From assembly GCA_039196715.1 (NCBI GenBank), contig JBCCUP010000023.1, positions 1 through 60,906 of the forward strand: 60,906 nt of DNA. The letters run 5' to 3'. This document shows positions 12,599 through 27,371 of the stretch, piece after piece; position 1 is the first letter of the stretch, and each line of letters opens with the position of its first letter. The notes beneath the pieces were generated by a model that saw nothing but the letters and a program-made list of their open reading frames with translations, was not told the origin of the DNA and searched no databases. The translations under genes were made by a program, and so were the position numbers. This DNA is from Pseudomonadota bacterium (lineage in GTDB: Bacteria > Pseudomonadota > Gammaproteobacteria > CALCKW01).

Positions 12599-12623
12599 GT
12601 AAATGCTAACAATTCGCATTTAC
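12599..12623. promoter_or_regulatory. Fur-superfamily (Fur or Zur) operator candidate
   Basis: A perfect 8-bp inverted repeat, GTAAATGC (12599-12606) and GCATTTAC (12616-12623), flanks a 9-bp AT-rich centre. Read as a Fur 7-1-7 box centred on 12611, it matches 10 of 14 consensus positions. The outer AAATG/CATTT arms also fit the enterobacterial Zur consensus. A plausible rightward promoter (TTCGCA at 12613-12618, 16-bp gap, GATAAC at 12635-12640) overlaps it, so binding should repress the ABC operon and perhaps the divergent VOC gene. Which metal is sensed is unresolved. Confidence 0.6.
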
Positions 12624-12661
12624 TAGGTGAAACTGATAACATCTCCCCGTCTCAAATTTGA

Positions 12662-13819
12662 ATGGACCGACACATGCACATTTTCCAATCGCTGCGCGGC
12701 TGCGCACTCGGCGTGGTGGCCCTGGCCTCAGCGTCGATCTTCGGCGTCGCTCACGCGGCCCCCATGACAGTGACGGACATCGCGGGGCGCGAAGTGACGC
12801 TGCCCGAGATGCCCAGCCGGATCATCCTCGGTGAGGGCCGGATGATGTACGGCATCGCGCCGATCGTCGACGGCAACCCGTTCGAGAAGCTGATCGGCTG
12901 GAAGGACGATCTCGTCCTCTACGATCCGGATGCGTTTCGCAAGTTCGAGGGGGCCTATCCGGAAGACGCGGGTCGTATGGTCAACTTTGGCAACCCCTAC
13001 GCTGGCGATTTCAGCATCGAGGCGGTGCTGGAAAACGAGGCTGACCTCCTGATCCTGGACCTGGGCAACCTGTTCAAGGCCGAGGAAACCGGCCTCATTG
13101 AGAAGCTCGACAAGGCGGGCGTGCCGGTCGTGTTCATCGATTTTCGCCGTAACCCGACCGAAAACGCCGTGCCGTCCATGCTGTTGCTCGGCCGCCTGTT
13201 CGGCGAAGAGAAGAACGCCGCGACCTTCATCGATTTCTACATCTCGCAGATGCGCAAGGTGTCGAACGTCATCGATACCATCCCGGCCGAGGACAAGCCG
13301 CTCGTCGTGATCGAAAACGCCGCCGGCTGGCAGGCTGACTTCTGCTGCTGGTCCTTCGGACCTTACAACTACGGCCGCTTTGTCGAACTGGCCGGCGGAC
13401 TGAACTACGGCTCGACCCTGGCCAACGCCTACTCCGTGACCCTGAACCTCGAGGGGATCGTCGCGGCCGATCCGGATGTGATCGTTGGCACCGGTGCCAA
13501 TTGGGTGGAGGCGCGGCCCGAGGTCACCTCGACGTTGCTCGGCTACGAGGGCAACCCTGAAGAGAACGCTGCGCGCATGCAGGCGCTCGCTGACCGTGCC
13601 GGCTTCAAGGAACTGCGTGCCGTGAAGGAGGGCAGGTTGCACTCCATTTACCACCAGTTCTACAACAGCCCCTACCACTTTGTGGCAATTCAGCAGCTCG
13701 CCAAGTGGTTGCACCCCGAGGATTTCGAAGACCTCGACCCGCAGGCGACATTCGATGACCTGCACAACCGCTTCATGCCGTTCGAGAACAGCGGGCAATT
13801 CTGGCTCTCCGACAACTGA
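12662..13819 (+). CDS. ABC transporter periplasmic substrate-binding protein (metal-chelate/FecB-BtuF type)
   Basis: Periplasmic binding protein of 385 residues for the transporter encoded just downstream. The N-terminus has a signal peptide ending near GVAHA-AP (about residue 32). The mature start MTVTDIAGREVTLPEMPSRI is the standard opening of class III (siderophore, haem or cobalamin) binding proteins, and a long linker helix region follows FIDFYISQMRK. The segment ADFCCWSFGPYNYGRFVELAGG carries an unusual Cys-Cys-Trp. The gene lies just after a Fur/Zur-like box, so metal limitation should induce it. No TonB-dependent receptor or siderophore synthesis gene is nearby, so the ligand is open: iron chelate, haem, or another metal complex. 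Confidence 0.88.
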   Translation: MDRHMHIFQSLRGCALGVVALASASIFGVAHAAPMTVTDIAGREVTLPEMPSRIILGEGRMMYGIAPIVDGNPFEKLIGWKDDLVLYDPDAFRKFEGAYPEDAGRMVNFGNPYAGDFSIEAVLENEADLLILDLGNLFKAEETGLIEKLDKAGVPVVFIDFRRNPTENAVPSMLLLGRLFGEEKNAATFIDFYISQMRKVSNVIDTIPAEDKPLVVIENAAGWQADFCCWSFGPYNYGRFVELAGGLNYGSTLANAYSVTLNLEGIVAADPDVIVGTGANWVEARPEVTSTLLGYEGNPEENAARMQALADRAGFKELRAVKEGRLHSIYHQFYNSPYHFVAIQQLAKWLHPEDFEDLDPQATFDDLHNRFMPFENSGQFWLSDN

Positions 13820-13829
13820 TCGCCCCGCG

Positions 13830-13861
13830 GTGCAGTGGCCCGATGCATCGGGCCACTGCAC
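13830..13861 (+). repeat. 32-bp perfect palindrome between binding-protein and permease genes
   Basis: The arms are GTGCAGTGGCCCGATG (13830-13845) and its exact complement (13846-13861). It begins 11 bp after the binding-protein stop and ends 11 bp before the permease ATG. There is no T-run, so it is probably not a full terminator. In RNA it would form a very stable hairpin that could protect the upstream message and lower expression of the permease and ATPase relative to the binding protein. Confidence 0.8.
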
Positions 13862-13872
13862 GGTGACCCAGC

Positions 13873-14946
13873 ATGCTCGAAGCCGTTGACGCCAGCCATC
13901 ACCGCCGTGAAACCGCGGCAGGCTACAGGTTGCGCACACTCAAGCGCGTGGCGTTGGTGTGTGCCGCGCTTGTCGCGTTGTTCGCCAGCCTGATTGTCGA
14001 CATCACGACCGGCCCTGCAGACCTCAGCTTCTGGCGCACGTTCCAGGTGATCGTCCAACCGGCCGTTGCCAGTGTGCAGGAAGAGGTGATCATCTGGGAT
14101 CTCCGCTTGCCGGTGGCACTCATGGCGATCGCCGTTGGCGCCATGCTCGGAGTCGCGGGTGCCGAAATGCAAACCATCCTGAACAACCCGCTCGCCGATC
14201 CCTTCACCCTCGGCCTGTCGTCCGCGGCCAGCTTCGGTGCTGCACTCGCGATTGTCTTGGGCTGGTCGATCGTGCCAGGTATCGGGGGGTTGATCGTGAC
14301 AGTCAACGCGTTCGTCATGGCGATGCTGACCTCACTGGCGCTGTTCGGCTTCACGCGCATTCGCGGCGCGACGCCCGAGACCATGGTCTTGGTCGGCATC
14401 GCCATGTTGTTCACTTTCAATGCCCTGCTGGCATTCTTGCAGTACGGTGCGTCAGAGCTGCAACTCGCGCAGCTGATTTTCTGGCAGCTCGGCTCGCTGG
14501 CCAGAGCGTCGTGGGAAAAAGTGGCCTTGTGCGGGCTCGTGTTGCTCGTCGTGTTGCCGTACTTCGTCCGCATGGGCTGGCAGTTGACGGCGCTGCGCAT
14601 GGGCGAAGAAAAAGCAGCGAGTCTGGGAGTGAACGTTGTGGCCTTGCGCCTGGGCGTGCTCGCCGGCGTATCGTTGCTCGCCGCAGTCGCGGTGTCGTTT
14701 GTCGGCGCGATCGCCTTCGTTGGTTTGGTTGGACCCCACATTGCACGGTTGGTCGTGGGCGAGGATCAACGTGGCTTTTTGCCGATGTCGGCACTGGCCG
14801 GTGCGCTTATCCTGTCGGGCACGTCGATCGTCTCAAAAGCCATTACGCCGGGTATCGTGTACCCGATCGGCATGATCACATCGTTGGTCGGCATACCCTT
14901 TTTCATCAGCCTGATTCTGAGCCAGCGCAAGAGACACTGGCAGTGA
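13873..14946 (+). CDS. FecCD-family ABC transporter permease
   Basis: Inner-membrane permease of 357 residues with roughly ten hydrophobic helices. Characteristic blocks are IIWDLRLPVALMAIAVGAMLGVAGAEMQTILNNPLADPFTLGLSSAASFGAA near residues 75-125, and the C-terminal VSFVGAIAFVGLVGPHIARL, which is the ATPase-contact loop of BtuC/FhuB/FecD-type permeases. It probably works as a homodimer, since only one permease gene is present. It is separated from the binding-protein gene by the 32-bp palindrome and overlaps the ATPase start by 4 bp (GTGA at 14943). Confidence 0.93.
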   Translation: MLEAVDASHHRRETAAGYRLRTLKRVALVCAALVALFASLIVDITTGPADLSFWRTFQVIVQPAVASVQEEVIIWDLRLPVALMAIAVGAMLGVAGAEMQTILNNPLADPFTLGLSSAASFGAALAIVLGWSIVPGIGGLIVTVNAFVMAMLTSLALFGFTRIRGATPETMVLVGIAMLFTFNALLAFLQYGASELQLAQLIFWQLGSLARASWEKVALCGLVLLVVLPYFVRMGWQLTALRMGEEKAASLGVNVVALRLGVLAGVSLLAAVAVSFVGAIAFVGLVGPHIARLVVGEDQRGFLPMSALAGALILSGTSIVSKAITPGIVYPIGMITSLVGIPFFISLILSQRKRHWQ

Positions 14947-15716
14947 GCGGGCTGGTATTGGACGCCGTCAGTTTCGCCTACGGCAAGACGACCGTGCTGC
15001 ACGACGCGACGGCGGGGGGTATGCCGCGCCGCAGTTTGACCGCGCTGGTTGGTCCCAACGCCTCAGGCAAATCGACTCTGTTTAAATGCGTGTCCGGCTT
15101 GCTCAAGGCCCGGTCTGGAGCAGTTAGGCTGGACGACGCAGACCTCGCCGCTCTGCACCTGCGGGCGCGCCTGCAAACGGTGTGCTTCATGCCTCAGTAC
15201 TTCGCGTCCAACGCGGCGCTGAGTGTGTTTGATGTGGTGCTCATGGCTTGCAAGAATTTGTCGGGTTGGACCGTCTCCGATGGCGATATCAAGCGGGTCG
15301 CTGCCGTGCTCGAATCCTGCGGTATAAGCCACCTGGCAGACTCCTACATCGGTGAATTGTCCGGAGGGCAGTCGCAGTTGGTTTCCATTGCACAGTCTCT
15401 TGTGCGACAGGCCGACGTTTACCTCTTCGACGAGCCAACCTCTGCGTTGGACCTGCGTCACCAGCTTGCGGTCCTGCACCGTATCAAGACACATGTGGCG
15501 GCCTACAACGCGGTCGGCATCGTCGCCCTGCACGATCTCAACCTGGCTGCCCGTTTTGCTGACCAGTTGATCCTGCTCGGCAATGGACGCGTCCGCGCAA
15601 CAGGCGCACCACAAGCGGTGCTATCCACACCCGAACTGGCAGACACCTATGGCGTGGAAATCGCTCTCGCCACGGGCCCTCAACAGGAGATTAGTGTTCA
15701 TGCGTACTCGATTTAG
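14943..15716 (+). CDS. ABC transporter ATP-binding protein (FecE/BtuD type)
   Basis: Cytoplasmic ATPase subunit of 257 residues. The GTG at 14943 overlaps the permease stop, and the protein reads SGLVLDAVSFAYGKTTVL from there. The Walker A is GPNASGKST (near residue 42), the signature is LSGGQSQL, the Walker B is VYLFDEPTSALD, and the H-loop is in ALHDLNLAARFAD. All catalytic motifs are intact. The 3' end runs 17 bp past the start codon of the pseudoazurin gene, so the fourth gene is tightly coupled to this transporter. Confidence 0.93.
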   Translation: MSGLVLDAVSFAYGKTTVLHDATAGGMPRRSLTALVGPNASGKSTLFKCVSGLLKARSGAVRLDDADLAALHLRARLQTVCFMPQYFASNAALSVFDVVLMACKNLSGWTVSDGDIKRVAAVLESCGISHLADSYIGELSGGQSQLVSIAQSLVRQADVYLFDEPTSALDLRHQLAVLHRIKTHVAAYNAVGIVALHDLNLAARFADQLILLGNGRVRATGAPQAVLSTPELADTYGVEIALATGPQQEISVHAYSI

Positions 15717-16158
15717 TGCAAGCCTGTTCTTGTTCAGTCTGTTCATCGCCCTGCCTGTTGCTGCAGCGGACCACAAGGTCAAAATGCTCAATGCGGCCAC
15801 GGGTGATGCGCAGCACACCAATGTCTTCGAGCCCCGGATTCTCTTCGTTGAGCCAGGTGACACCGTGACCTTCATTCCGTCCGACGCAGGCCACAATGCG
15901 GCGTCGAAGCGGGGTATGTTGCCTCAAGGTGCAGAACCCTGGAACAGTCCAATGGATGCAGAATTCACCGTGACGCTGACGGAACCGGGCGTGTACGGCT
16001 ACATCTGTGTGCCGCACTACGAAATGGGTATGGTCGGGTTGATCGTTGTCGGTTCCGCTGAAACGAATTTGAAAGCGGCCAAGAAGGTGCGCCACCCGGG
16101 CTCGGCGCGCAAGGCCTTTCGTACGTTGTTCAAGGAGTTGGAAAGCAGCTTGCAATAA
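15700..16158 (+). CDS. Pseudoazurin (type 1 blue copper protein), ABC-operon copy
   Basis: Periplasmic cupredoxin of 152 residues with a signal peptide ending near VAAA-DHK. Copper ligands are visible in family spacing: His in SDAGHNAAS, then Cys and His in ICVPH, and Met five residues after that His. The ATG at 15700 has a good AGGAG site and lies inside the end of the ATPase gene. Pseudoazurins normally shuttle electrons to nitrite or nitrous-oxide reductases, but none is nearby. A basic 33-residue C-terminal tail (AKKVRHPGSARKAF) is unusual. It is a paralogue of the gene at 21857. Confidence 0.9.
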   Translation: MRTRFSASLFLFSLFIALPVAAADHKVKMLNAATGDAQHTNVFEPRILFVEPGDTVTFIPSDAGHNAASKRGMLPQGAEPWNSPMDAEFTVTLTEPGVYGYICVPHYEMGMVGLIVVGSAETNLKAAKKVRHPGSARKAFRTLFKELESSLQ

Positions 16159-21856: not shown

Positions 21857-22303
21857 ATGAAAAATACTGCAAAACAACTCTTGTCTGCGCTTGCATTTGC
21901 TGCGATCTCGAACGTGGCGATCGCCGCTGATCACACCGTGAAAATGTTGAACAACGGGGCCGATGGCTTGATGGTGTTCGAGCCTGGTTTCATCCGAGCA
22001 GAACCGGGTGACACCGTGACCTTTGTCGCCACTGACGCAGGGCACAACACGGCCTCTGTGGTCGTGCCGGACGGCGCCACGGCGTGGAACGGAGCGATGG
22101 GCGAGGAAGTGACCATCACCCTCGACAAGGAAGGCGTGTACGTCTATCAGTGCACACCCCATCTCGTGATGGCGATGGTTGGCGTTATTCAAGTGGGCAG
22201 TGCTGTCAACAAGGCAGACGCAGAAGCCGCCGCGAGCACGCTGACAAGCACCATGGCGATGAATCAGGATCGCCTCGCCGGTTACCTTTCTCAAATTCAG
22301 TGA
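21857..22303 (+). CDS. Pseudoazurin (type 1 blue copper protein), stand-alone copy
   Basis: Periplasmic cupredoxin of 148 residues with a signal peptide cleaved near AIA-ADH. Counting from ADHTVK as residue 1, the copper ligands are His40 (DAGHNT), Cys76, His79 (QCTPH) and Met84. That is the pseudoazurin His-Cys-His-Met set with a two-residue deletion before the Cys. It would carry electrons between c-type cytochromes or bc1 and a periplasmic reductase; none is encoded nearby. It is a paralogue of the gene at 15700, sharing AADH-VKMLN, EPGDTVTF and AGHN. Confidence 0.92.
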   Translation: MKNTAKQLLSALAFAAISNVAIAADHTVKMLNNGADGLMVFEPGFIRAEPGDTVTFVATDAGHNTASVVVPDGATAWNGAMGEEVTITLDKEGVYVYQCTPHLVMAMVGVIQVGSAVNKADAEAAASTLTSTMAMNQDRLAGYLSQIQ

Positions 22304-22504: not shown

Positions 22505-23833
22505 TCACTGACCCTGGCGACGCCACTCGAATCGCATGCCTTTTGCGCTTCGGCTGGGGAAACCCGGCCAATGGGTGTGTTTGTCGGTAAAGGCCCCCTC
22601 GGACTCGTCGTACACACCGTCGTTGGCGTTCGGTACCAGGTCGAGGTAGGCATCGGCCTCGGTGTCGCCCTTGAGGTATTTGCTGAGCCAGGCGGTGACA
22701 AAGTGCTGTGACACGTTGTTCATGCGGACGGAGTCCCACACGGCGTCGCTGTAGTGCTCGGACACGTTGAAGCCGAGGCGCTCGTTGACGTAGAAGCTCT
22801 CCGCAGGAGCCGGCATCGGTGCGCCGGCGTTGTGATTGGCGTTGTCGAACGTCAACAGCGCGCGTTCGACGGCTGTCGCGCCTTCCCACAGGGCGCGTAC
22901 ACCGTTCTCGTAGCCAGACACGTCATCCTGAGAACCGGCCACGAACAGCATCGGTATGCGGATGCCCGCGAGGCCGGTGGCGTCCCAGAACCCCGTGTTC
23001 ATGCCCCACGGCGCAAAGGCGACCGCGGTCTTGATACGTGAATCGAACAGCGCATCGTGTGCCTCGCTCCCGGCCCTGTGGGCTGCCAGGGTCCCGTGTG
23101 GGGCGGCCCAAGGGTAGTCGATGGCGGTTTGCGTGACGCCGCCACCGGCCGTGATCACTGCGCCGTAGCCGCCCATGGAGTAGCCGATAACGGCGGTGTT
23201 TTCCGTGTCCACACGGCCGGCGAGGACGTGCGAAGCGGTCGCGTTGAGGCGTGCCATCTCGTTCAACACGAAAAGCTGATCCAGCGACCGGTTCACCAGT
23301 GTGGACCCGAATGCCGCCTGGGTGCGGTAGGTCGAGTCGGTGTGATCAATCGACACCACCACGTAGCCCTTTGACGCCATGTTCTCTGCCAGGTGCGAGA
23401 GCAGGAAGCGGTTGCCCGGGTATCCGTGCGACACGATGACGAGCGGAAACGCGTCGCCGTCGGCGTGCACCTCGGCGTTCCGGATCGCCCGTCCGTGCAG
23501 CTCGACTTCGGTCGTGGCGTCGCGCAGAAACACGTTCAGCACAGTGTCGCCGTCACTGCCGGGCACCGCGGGGTACCAGACCTCGAGTGTCAGCGGTCGG
23601 TCGTAGCGCGGCAGTGGGTCCGGTCTCGGTGCGTCGTTGCTCAGCGCGAGGATATCGAGCTGATTGGAGTTGACCACCTCGAGGGTTCGCACGCCGATGG
23701 CGTGGTCACCGTACGCGGCCAGGGCAGGGGCATCGGGCCGTTGGGTGTCTATGCGGTTTTGTGCCATGAGGGGAGCGAGCGTCAGGCTCAGCAACGCGAG
23801 CGTTGCCGTGCGAATCAAGAGAAGTGCAGTCAT
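22505..23833 (-). CDS. Secreted alpha/beta hydrolase (dienelactone/PAF-acetylhydrolase-like)
   Basis: A 442-residue exported serine hydrolase. The ATG at 23833 gives a signal peptide (LLIRTATLALLSLTLAPLMAQ). The oxyanion region VIVSHGYPGNRFL and the nucleophile elbow GYSMGGYGA place it with dienelactone-hydrolase or platelet-activating-factor-acetylhydrolase-like proteins. PMLFVAGSQDDVSGY supplies the acid and FDNANHNAG the His. The physiological ester is unknown. It is 121 bp downstream of the LytTR regulator gene on the same strand, so it may be part of that transcript or its target. Confidence 0.85.
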   Translation of the reverse strand: MTALLLIRTATLALLSLTLAPLMAQNRIDTQRPDAPALAAYGDHAIGVRTLEVVNSNQLDILALSNDAPRPDPLPRYDRPLTLEVWYPAVPGSDGDTVLNVFLRDATTEVELHGRAIRNAEVHADGDAFPLVIVSHGYPGNRFLLSHLAENMASKGYVVVSIDHTDSTYRTQAAFGSTLVNRSLDQLFVLNEMARLNATASHVLAGRVDTENTAVIGYSMGGYGAVITAGGGVTQTAIDYPWAAPHGTLAAHRAGSEAHDALFDSRIKTAVAFAPWGMNTGFWDATGLAGIRIPMLFVAGSQDDVSGYENGVRALWEGATAVERALLTFDNANHNAGAPMPAPAESFYVNERLGFNVSEHYSDAVWDSVRMNNVSQHFVTAWLSKYLKGDTEADAYLDLVPNANDGVYDESEGAFTDKHTHWPGFPSRSAKGMRFEWRRQGQ

Positions 23834-23954
23834 TGCCGTGCCGTCCGTGCGTGGGTGCGTCCCAACCACCGTACGGGTTGCATGCAGTCGGCGCCAGTGT
23901 TGGCGGGTGTTGCGTTCGGCACGGACGGGTCGCACCGCGTGGCAGCGCCACCTG

Positions 23955-24755
23955 CTACATGGCCTGAAACAGGTGGCGGTACACCCGGCTGACGCTCGGT
24001 TGTTTGTCACAGCCATCGAGTTGCAGCGTGACCTTGCCCGAGTCATCCCGGGTGGCGGACCGGATGGCCAGCAGGTTGACGATGGCACTGCGGTGTATCT
24101 GTTGAAAACGGTCCGGGTCGAGTTGCGGTAACAGCGACTTCAACGGCTCACGTATCAACGCCTCACCGTCCGCGGTGTGGACTGTGACGTACTTGTCCGC
24201 GGATTCGAACAGGATGACGTCCTCGACCGGGATGACCCGGACCGTGCTGCCCGAGCTCGCACGAATGATCTGCAACCGGGTCTGCTGCGGGGTGTCGGCG
24301 CGTGGGACGGCGTGAAGCAACTGCTGCAACTGCGTGGTCAGGGCGGTGTCGTCGCGTGAGGTGATCCGCACCCGTTCACGCAGACGGCGTACGGTTTCCG
24401 TCAGTCGGGCTGCCGTCACCGGCTTGAGCAGGTAGTCACACGCTGCCGCTTCAAAGGCCGCCACCGCGTACTGGTCGAACGCGGTCGTGAACACCACGAG
24501 CGGCGCCGGGGTGCTGTCTCTGTCCGGCCAGTCTTCGACGATCGACTGGGCGATCTCGATGCCGCTGGCCCCGGGCATGTTGATATCGAGAAAGGCGACG
24601 GTGGGTTTGTGGCGGAAGATCGCGTTGCGCGCGGCCTCGCCACTGGACTCGGCCGCGACGACCTGCAGCGCGGGCCAGGCCGTGGCCAGCTCGACGCGCA
24701 GCGCGTCGAGCAGCAGTGGCTCATCGTCGGCAATGATGGCGGTGTACGGGCTCAT
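23955..24755 (-). CDS. LytTR-family response regulator
   Basis: A 266-residue regulator. Residues 4-125 form a receiver domain with acidic pocket ADDE, phospho-acceptor Asp57 (FLDINMPGASG) and Lys in YLLKPVTA. Residues about 165-263 form a LytTR DNA-binding domain (VEDVILFESADKYVTVHTADG, LDPDRFQQIHRSAIVNLLAI). It is of the AlgR/LytR type. Its start overlaps the kinase stop by 4 bp (ATGA), so the two form one transcript and one signalling pair. Targets may include the neighbouring hydrolase or carotenoid oxygenase. Confidence 0.93.
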   Translation of the reverse strand: MSPYTAIIADDEPLLLDALRVELATAWPALQVVAAESSGEAARNAIFRHKPTVAFLDINMPGASGIEIAQSIVEDWPDRDSTPAPLVVFTTAFDQYAVAAFEAAACDYLLKPVTAARLTETVRRLRERVRITSRDDTALTTQLQQLLHAVPRADTPQQTRLQIIRASSGSTVRVIPVEDVILFESADKYVTVHTADGEALIREPLKSLLPQLDPDRFQQIHRSAIVNLLAIRSATRDDSGKVTLQLDGCDKQPSVSRVYRHLFQAM

Positions 24756-25853: not shown

Positions 25854-27371
25854 TCAACGGGAGACAAACTGGCCGTGCAAACCCATCGGCAGGCCGTATG
25901 TCAGCGTCGCCTCGGCGACAGGGCCGTCTTCGACGTGTGCCGCGTTGAACACCGAGATACCCGTTCGGCGCGTTTTCCAATTGTAGTGGGTGCCAATCAC
26001 CCACCCGACACCGGCCGTGCCGTGCGGCGCAGGCACGAACAGATGTTCCTCGGCCAGGGTGTTGCTGCCGTAGTCGTACAGCGCCTCTGTCCCACGTGCG
26101 CGGTCGAACACGGTGACCGTGTTGAAGCCGAAGGCCGCAGGTGGCAGGGATGCCGCGCGCCCCATCATCACCAGCGCATTGGTGCGGCGGCCGGTGAATC
26201 GCTGGTCGAATCGAGGAAAATCGATGCCCGAGGTGGGCAGAGTGTCAATCTCTGCGGTGCCGGTCAGCAAATTCAGGCGGATCTCGGCGGCTTGTGCGCG
26301 GCCAACGGTCGCCGGCAGACGCTGACCGCGTGTCGCGGCCTCGATGTCGGCCATGAGCGAGTGAAAGTCGGGCGCTGTTGCCACTTCCACGCGCAGGCTG
26401 CCGCCATCACGCCAGGCGTTGCCGAGGTGGAAGGCAAAGAACGCGGGCAGTTCGAAGCGGTGGCTGACCGACAGTGTGTCCTTGTCCACCAACAACACGT
26501 GCACAGCGCCGTCGCTGTCCCACCGGAGCCTGTCCAGAAACGGGCTTGCGGGATCGCCCTGGCGGTCGAATCGAATGGGTTGAAGCACAAAGACGAGGTG
26601 CTCTTCGGTGATGGCGAAATCGTGCACCATGTCGGCGTTCGGCGCGTCGATCAGGGTGACCCGGTGCATCGAGCCATCGGCGTTCAGGTCGTAGAGCACC
26701 AACTTGCCGCTGCCACTGAGGTAACCGAAATTCCAGATGCGGCCCGTTGGGTCAACGCGCGGATGGGCAGAAAACGGCAAGCCATCGGTGTCTGTCGAGA
26801 ACACGTGGCGTTCGAGCGTTTCCAGGGTCTCCGCGTGCAGGCGGTATGGTGATCCGGCCTCCCACAACGCGAGGATATCGTCGCCGACGGGCAGCACGTT
26901 GATGTTCGCGACGTTCACGTCGTCCGGGTGCGCAACGGTACGACCGTCGTCAAAACCGGTGCCGAAACCGCTCCAGAGAAACCTGCCGGCCTGCGCCTCT
27001 ATGGCCGAGCGGGCCGTGTCCACCATGCGCGCTCGGTGCGTGAGGTGGTCGCCGTCCAGGGCGAAGGCATGCACCATACCGTCGCCGTCAAACCAGTGGT
27101 TGTAGCGGGTATCTCCGCGTTGCATGCGCGCGGGGCCGTTGCGGTACAAGGTGCCGCGCAATCCGGCCGGTAACGGTGCGTTGAACCGCACGCGCGTCGG
27201 CCCGTAGGTGTCGGGCACGTCGCGAAAACTACTCGCGAAGGCCTGCTGCGCATCAGGGACACGGTCCACGGCGCCGGCCCGTGGTGAACAACCGAACGCG
27301 TAGGCGAAACCGCCTGCGACCGCCGATTGGCAAAACGCGCGGCGATTGAGCTGGGGTTGGGCGGTTGACAT
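25854..27371 (-). CDS. Carotenoid oxygenase family protein (Tat-exported)
   Basis: Non-haem iron dioxygenase of the RPE65/lignostilbene-dioxygenase family, which cleaves a C=C bond in carotenoids, apocarotenoids or stilbenes. The 505 residues include the family blocks YNHWFDGDGMVHAFALDGDHLTHRARMV, AHPRVDPTGRIWNFGY, DAPNADMVHDFAITEEHLVFV and a C-terminal GLPMGLHGQF. The N-terminus is NRRAFCQSAVAGGFAYAFGC, a twin-arginine signal with a possible lipobox Cys. Export of such an enzyme is less common. It follows the DUF2141 gene by 9 bp, and the kinase gene follows it by 40 bp. No carotenoid biosynthesis genes are present. Confidence 0.9.
   Translation of the reverse strand: MSTAQPQLNRRAFCQSAVAGGFAYAFGCSPRAGAVDRVPDAQQAFASSFRDVPDTYGPTRVRFNAPLPAGLRGTLYRNGPARMQRGDTRYNHWFDGDGMVHAFALDGDHLTHRARMVDTARSAIEAQAGRFLWSGFGTGFDDGRTVAHPDDVNVANINVLPVGDDILALWEAGSPYRLHAETLETLERHVFSTDTDGLPFSAHPRVDPTGRIWNFGYLSGSGKLVLYDLNADGSMHRVTLIDAPNADMVHDFAITEEHLVFVLQPIRFDRQGDPASPFLDRLRWDSDGAVHVLLVDKDTLSVSHRFELPAFFAFHLGNAWRDGGSLRVEVATAPDFHSLMADIEAATRGQRLPATVGRAQAAEIRLNLLTGTAEIDTLPTSGIDFPRFDQRFTGRRTNALVMMGRAASLPPAAFGFNTVTVFDRARGTEALYDYGSNTLAEEHLFVPAPHGTAGVGWVIGTHYNWKTRRTGISVFNAAHVEDGPVAEATLTYGLPMGLHGQFVSR

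Follow-up and report, generated by a model that had tools for sequence, protein, structure and literature searches.

A YiuA-type importer operon with a co-inherited pseudoazurin gene and a predicted Fur box in a gammaproteobacterial genome

Described importers and the window operon

The YiuABC iron uptake system of Yersinia (cluster A-2) consists of a binding protein, a FecCD-type permease and an ATPase and is under Fur-type control. Copper proteins are expressed together with iron importers in EfeUOB (as a cupredoxin domain), P19/FetMP and yeast Fet3-Ftr1, where Fe(II) is handled through other transporter families, and to our knowledge they are known as partners of iron uptake only in such families. 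In FpvCDEF-FpvG and FoxB, siderophores are reduced by PepSY membrane reductases. Here we describe a four-gene operon in a 60,906-nucleotide stretch (the window; contig JBCCUP010000023.1, assembly GCA_039196715.1) from a gammaproteobacterium, in which a YiuA-type importer is followed by a gene for pseudoazurin, a blue copper protein. In contrast to EfeUOB, P19/FetMP and Fet3-Ftr1, a free blue copper carrier without oxidase activity accompanies an ABC importer of the ferric-chelate type. A periplasmic redox step beside a siderophore importer is proposed here as it is for FpvCDEF-FpvG and FoxB, but the window operon contains no PepSY gene.

A similar arrangement is annotated in Actinobacillus pleuropneumoniae, where APPSER1_09785-09810 comprises genes for a binding protein, a permease, an ATPase, a pseudoazurin, a second binding protein and a glutathione synthetase (PMC12507848). 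The first four genes stand in the same order as in the window, a likeness of gene order and annotation only, whereas the last two have no counterpart there. The proteins of that operon increased in iron starvation, the pseudoazurin with a log2FC of 2.38 in the proteome (about 5-fold); the authors do not discuss the pseudoazurin and the operon is uncharacterised (PMC12507848). We found no paper that describes the pairing of importer and pseudoazurin as such, and one table that lists it (PMC12507848).

Gene calls, protein families and gene overlap bear out the initial annotation of the locus as an ABC operon for a metal chelate with a co-translated pseudoazurin gene at its end. All four genes lie on the plus strand. 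The periplasmic binding protein (12662-13819, 385 aa, with a signal peptide) was assigned to PF01497 (Peripla_BP_2) and to the YiuA type by phmmer and Foldseek. It is followed by the FecCD-family permease (13873-14946, 357 aa; PF01032, 1.5e-78), which is 74-84% identical to homologues from Roseobacter and Roseibium, and by the ATPase (14943-15716, 257 aa; PF00005, 2.7e-25), which has adjacent homologues in all intact relatives and whose GTG start overlaps the permease stop. Thus, a FecCD permease and an ATPase share one operon with a YiuA-type binding protein. The ATG of the pseudoazurin gene (15700-16158, 152 aa) is located 17 bp inside the ATPase gene, as is a Shine-Dalgarno-like AGGAG at 15685-15689 (+); a longer open reading frame from 15583 is not needed. 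Many relatives share the 17-bp overlap and others have 11-20 bp, which suggests that translational coupling is an old feature. The operon has a GC content of 61% compared with 66% for the window, and no Rfam element was found in its leader.

The binding protein matched Y. pestis YiuA (6b2x; phmmer 2.6e-80, residues 25-383) as well as YiuA of Y. ruckeri, although identity is only approximately 35%. Using its structural model (mean pLDDT 72.7), Foldseek placed YiuA structures at ranks 1-15 (rank 1 with a TM score of 0.89 by target), among them complexes of Y. ruckeri YiuA with iron, with Fe-NTA and with Fe and DHB-L-Arg-L-Ser. Proposed roles for the named YiuA residues are given in PMC5683015, in which the basic triad R64, R165 and R223 is proposed only. 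R64 and R165 are retained as R60 and R162, and the His/Tyr pair (H331, Y334) and the disulfide Cys pair (C228, C229) are invariant in 15 binding-protein sequences. Because an equivalent of R223 is absent, we call the protein YiuA-like rather than YiuA. The window operon thus shares with YiuABC the binding-protein family and fold, the permease and ATPase types, these conserved residues and, by prediction, Fur-type control, and differs from it by the pseudoazurin as a fourth gene and by lacking a receptor gene. We infer that the substrate is probably a ferric chelate, which may be a partly coordinated catecholate and need not be the one used by YiuA. That a ferric chelate is imported in iron starvation has good support. 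The importer is of a known kind; what is new is its well-supported pseudoazurin partner gene.

Distribution and descent of the importer-pseudoazurin pair

Co-occurrence was surveyed in 24 loci with a binding protein 66-77% identical to that of the window. The set comprises Roseobacters, Roseibium, two plasmid types and the window itself (17 loci from a genome scan, four from an order survey, the two plasmid types and the window). In 19 of them an intact pseudoazurin gene follows the ATPase gene, as would be expected from the initial annotation, and these copies belong to one monophyletic subfamily (support 100/97). The remaining five are a locus with a truncated pseudogene (L092), a decayed operon from which the permease and a large part of the binding protein are gone (L093), and three transporters without pseudoazurin (L021, L022, L024). 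No substitute redox gene such as a cytochrome was found in the loci without pseudoazurin. Across 293 Rhodobacterales genomes, all seven pseudoazurins that are 57-70% identical to the window protein are located at this transporter, while the other 77 pseudoazurin-like places reach at most 52% identity and none is at this transporter. Operon-type pseudoazurin is therefore present in 7/10 transporter carriers and in 0/283 other genomes (Fisher p = 3.5e-12, uncorrected for kinship). Judged from these distributions, the pairing is not due to chance but is a recurrent, co-inherited unit. The combination was initially considered unusual; this holds for the family at large, but the unit recurs, and an operon of the same order is annotated in Actinobacillus (PMC12507848).

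On the transporter tree, from which L093 and L023 are left out, it takes five changes to explain where the pseudoazurin is present, which we interpret as a single gain and four losses. The window operon is nested within the Roseobacter clade (SH-aLRT 99). Its binding protein is absent from three congeners, and relatives at E 1e-25 occur in only five of 369 genomes of the class including the window's own, the other four at 31-37% identity. Transporters in this class (5 loci), unlike the window operon, carry no pseudoazurin. In the congener G001, the flanking genes are the same but have another large gene between them in place of the operon. This is a 1071-aa open frame (L191, 5034-8249), which marks the position as a variable site. 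The operon is plasmid-borne in Phaeobacter gallaeciensis and Tateyamaria, and the pseudoazurin has apparently moved with the transporter into another class. Horizontal acquisition of the window operon looks like the simplest reading, since in the tree it falls among Roseobacter operons and none of the three congeners has it. A contaminating contig is unlikely, the flanking genes being syntenic with a congener.

On plasmid pGal_A255 of P. gallaeciensis, AraC, TonB-receptor and DUF2218 genes come after the four operon genes, an arrangement also known from siderophore loci, and the same set surrounds more distant homologues (L044, L045). Bacterioferritin and imelysin-type genes are found near the operon in several Roseobacters. 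A TonB receptor, PepSY protein, AraC or DUF2218 gene tied to the operon was considered and rejected: within the close clade they occur in P. gallaeciensis only, apart from a receptor beside the decayed operon of L093. The PepSY-domain membrane protein, of a type that includes siderophore reductases, lies approximately 1 kb upstream of the pGal_A255 operon (L169, 9515-10903) beside a nirK/nor cluster and is unlinked elsewhere.

The window pseudoazurin scores 133.2 bits with TIGR02375, above the curated cut-off of 109.85, and was further assigned by 3tu6 (2.9e-34) and by its position in the tree; its model (pLDDT 88) matches solved pseudoazurins by Foldseek. It shares the fold and the type-1 copper ligands (H65, C103, H106, M111) with canonical pseudoazurins, the denitrification donors of A. 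faecalis (1paz) and P. pantotrophus (1adw), and the ligands are kept across operon copies except for a Met-to-Ile exchange in L014. The operon type differs from the canonical proteins in its linkage to an importer, in a GHNxASKRGM motif present in nearly all copies, and in the replacement of lysines 10, 38, 57, 59 and 77 (A. faecalis numbering, checked against 1paz). None of these five positions is basic in the window protein, and basic residues there average 0.06 in 17 operon copies compared with 4.1 in 52 other Rhodobacterales pseudoazurins. These lysines serve as docking sites for denitrification partners, and their loss points away from such partners.

A further difference concerns export. 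A twin-arginine signal at the likely start was recognized by inspection in 14 of 18 relatives, compared with 3 of 53 other pseudoazurins by motif scan; the scan alone gave 16 of 19, two of the matches being upstream of the likely start. The window protein, unlike most relatives, has a Sec-like signal. Twin-arginine signals, which imply folded export, occur on Roseobacter operon pseudoazurins including L017, L019, L029, L090, L091, L169 and L170. An extra Cys pair (ACPAP...NA[AD]CG), possibly a disulfide, is present at the mature N-terminus in L016, L017, L018, L029 and L030 and absent from the window copy. The window contains a second, solitary pseudoazurin gene (21857-22303, +; TIGR02375 142.6 bits) with no Fur-like site; its product also lacks the canonical lysines and clusters with other pseudoazurins of the genome. 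Seven Copper-bind matches were counted in this genome in total, and a 500-aa frame (L003/L005/L041, G000:C76:19254-19982) has two tandem copper-binding domains.

The upstream dyad and predicted iron control

Upstream of the operon, the inverted repeat GTAAATGC-N9-GCATTTAC is exact at 12599-12623, with perfect 8-bp arms as initially annotated. When the 166-bp intergenic region was shuffled, approximately 2% of the shuffled sequences contained a perfect 8-bp dyad with a spacer of 3-13 nt, so that on its own the dyad is no more than mildly unusual. Much stronger evidence came from the whole genome: a search with the 21-bp core of the dyad (12601-12621), allowing up to three mismatches, returned the window site and six or seven more distinct sites, while the reversed pattern returned none. 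At least five of these sites adjoin iron genes: a TonB receptor with a FecCD importer (L037/L054), an exbB-type gene near another TonB receptor (L055), bacterioferritin and its ferredoxin (L050), a siderophore-interacting reductase (L052) and an imelysin-type gene (L049). At two sites, L051 and L053, no iron gene is evident nearby. With a matrix built from five of the core-like sites, the window dyad scored 32.6 and the next best site in the 60.9 kb 9.7. The matrix also found sites at two TonB-receptor genes that the pattern had missed (L035, L036). Each of the four TonB-receptor loci in the genome, or its exbB, has a Fur-like site next to it. As the sites were chosen for their likeness to the dyad, there is some circularity in the selection, which does not extend to their positions in the genome.

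The genome encodes one Fur and one Zur, and no dyad-like site was found at the zur-znuCBA locus (L033). Because its sister sites adjoin iron genes and none lies at zur-znuCBA, we read the dyad as a predicted Fur box, the host genome's own iron box. Of the proposed Fur/Zur-like operator the Fur part therefore stands and the Zur part does not; the plausible promoter placed over the dyad is likewise unsupported, no sigma-70 consensus having been found there. Contrary to the initial expectation, the dyad was not conserved: it was not found upstream of the relatives' operons, which carry other upstream elements. A conserved operon element was thus rejected, and by this comparison the dyad belongs to the host. 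TTGAC..AGTC-like motifs, candidates for the 19-bp Iron-Rhodo-box palindrome (IscR), precede the operon in many relatives; they are of moderate strength in L026, L027 and L029, and only L017 and L025 have strong ones. The assumed pattern is no commoner genome-wide than its control, and one matching site adjoins heme-uptake genes; an Iron-Rhodo-box in the Rhodobacteraceae relatives is suggestive only. Taken together, import by this transporter under Fur control in vivo, as we infer it, is very probable.

Possible roles of the pseudoazurin

The explanation we prefer is an iron-starvation operon whose pseudoazurin handles iron redox at the binding protein, and we regard the chances that it holds as a whole as evenly divided. 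When iron is scarce, Fur would leave the dyad and the four genes would be expressed together. The ferric chelate captured by the YiuA-type binding protein would probably be a catecholate xenosiderophore or a product of its breakdown; the protein's own His331 and Tyr334 would lie near the iron, and the permease and ATPase would import the chelate. The pseudoazurin, exported to the periplasm, would serve this iron-uptake state as a one-electron carrier. The potentials of blue copper carriers lie around +0.25 to +0.3 V, well above those of ferric siderophores, so that such a protein should oxidize Fe(II) more readily than it could reduce a tight ferric siderophore. It is therefore doubtful that the imported metal is reduced in the periplasm, as the initial annotation suggested. 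We favour a role in which the pseudoazurin would accept electrons from Fe(II), keeping or returning iron as the Fe(III) taken by the binding protein, and would pass them to the respiratory chain. This direction is itself rather unlikely to be the right one, whereas a role tied specifically to this importer, favoured by the exclusive linkage of the subfamily to it, falls just short of an even chance.

Several observations weigh against the preferred explanation. In A. pleuropneumoniae the transcripts changed in the other direction from the proteins, the pseudoazurin transcript with a log2FC of -1.85 (PMC12507848). The R223 position of YiuA is A220 in the window and alanine across the whole close clade, which leaves two of the three residues of the basic triad. 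No TonB receptor adjoins the window operon, and in the loci surveyed no gene for a reductase, an oxidase or another redox partner accompanies the operon consistently. Sister transporters at 47-51% identity (8 loci) and 37-44% (11 loci, two in one genome) never have a pseudoazurin, and the other pseudoazurins of the window's own genome likewise lack the lysines, so that this loss is not operon-specific. Finally, at least four losses of the pseudoazurin have left the transporter in place, which suggests that it is not required for import and is an aid rather than a need.

The main rival, already raised in the initial annotation and close in probability to the importer-tied role though on balance unlikely, is that the pseudoazurin spares iron, replacing c-type cytochromes in respiration as an iron-free carrier and sharing the operon for its iron control only. 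Pseudoazurins and cytochromes c are alternative electron carriers, and Fur-type control and the independent losses would fit a dispensable spare carrier, as would induction of the A. pleuropneumoniae protein by iron starvation (PMC12507848). A general carrier would however be expected alone or under other iron promoters, but this one was found only behind this transporter subtype and with the docking lysine positions of the canonical protein replaced. An improbable alternative is that the pseudoazurin is a passenger, acquired by chance in a single ancestral operon and since then carried along with no functional link. The single gain, the several losses and the pseudogene of L092 agree with this. 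Against it, the gene has been retained in 19 of the 24 loci, in two families, and survived a jump to another class; the 17-bp overlap is often shared, and nearly all copies have the distinct motif. The similar gene order in Actinobacillus (PMC12507848) also speaks against a passenger.

Two further explanations turn on copper or zinc. Siderophores can carry copper, and a pseudoazurin that bound copper entering with or competing for the chelator could guard against mismetallation in the periplasm or at the binding protein. The copper ligands, intact in every operon copy but one, are consistent with such a role, but no copper-responsive regulator or copper efflux gene was present in the neighbourhoods read and regulation appears iron-like, which leaves it with a small probability, below that of a passenger. 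Least probable by far is import of a copper or zinc chelate in place of iron to supply the cuproprotein. The cupredoxin in the operon and the partial Zur resemblance of the dyad reported initially speak for it; against it stand the iron-type operator with sister sites at TonB receptors and bfr and none at zur-znu, the YiuA structures with ferric ligands, and the bfr and imelysin neighbours in several relatives.

Elsewhere in the window, minus-strand frames at 22505-24088 and 25854-27371 encode a PETase-like alpha/beta hydrolase and an RPE65-family (carotenoid or lignostilbene cleavage) protein.

The periplasmic handling of ferric chelates is a long-standing question. With a mobile, conserved cassette of a YiuA-type importer and its own pseudoazurin, a link between copper and iron in siderophore-type uptake becomes testable. 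We propose tentatively that the pseudoazurin may be a dedicated redox partner of a ferric-chelate ABC importer, mediating periplasmic copper-iron electron transfer, in a four-gene cassette spread horizontally in marine bacteria. A pseudoazurin in a genome need not imply denitrification, and the recurrence of the cassette in marine bacteria and on plasmids, with apparent movement between distant groups, suggests that copper redox chemistry is tied to iron uptake of this kind.

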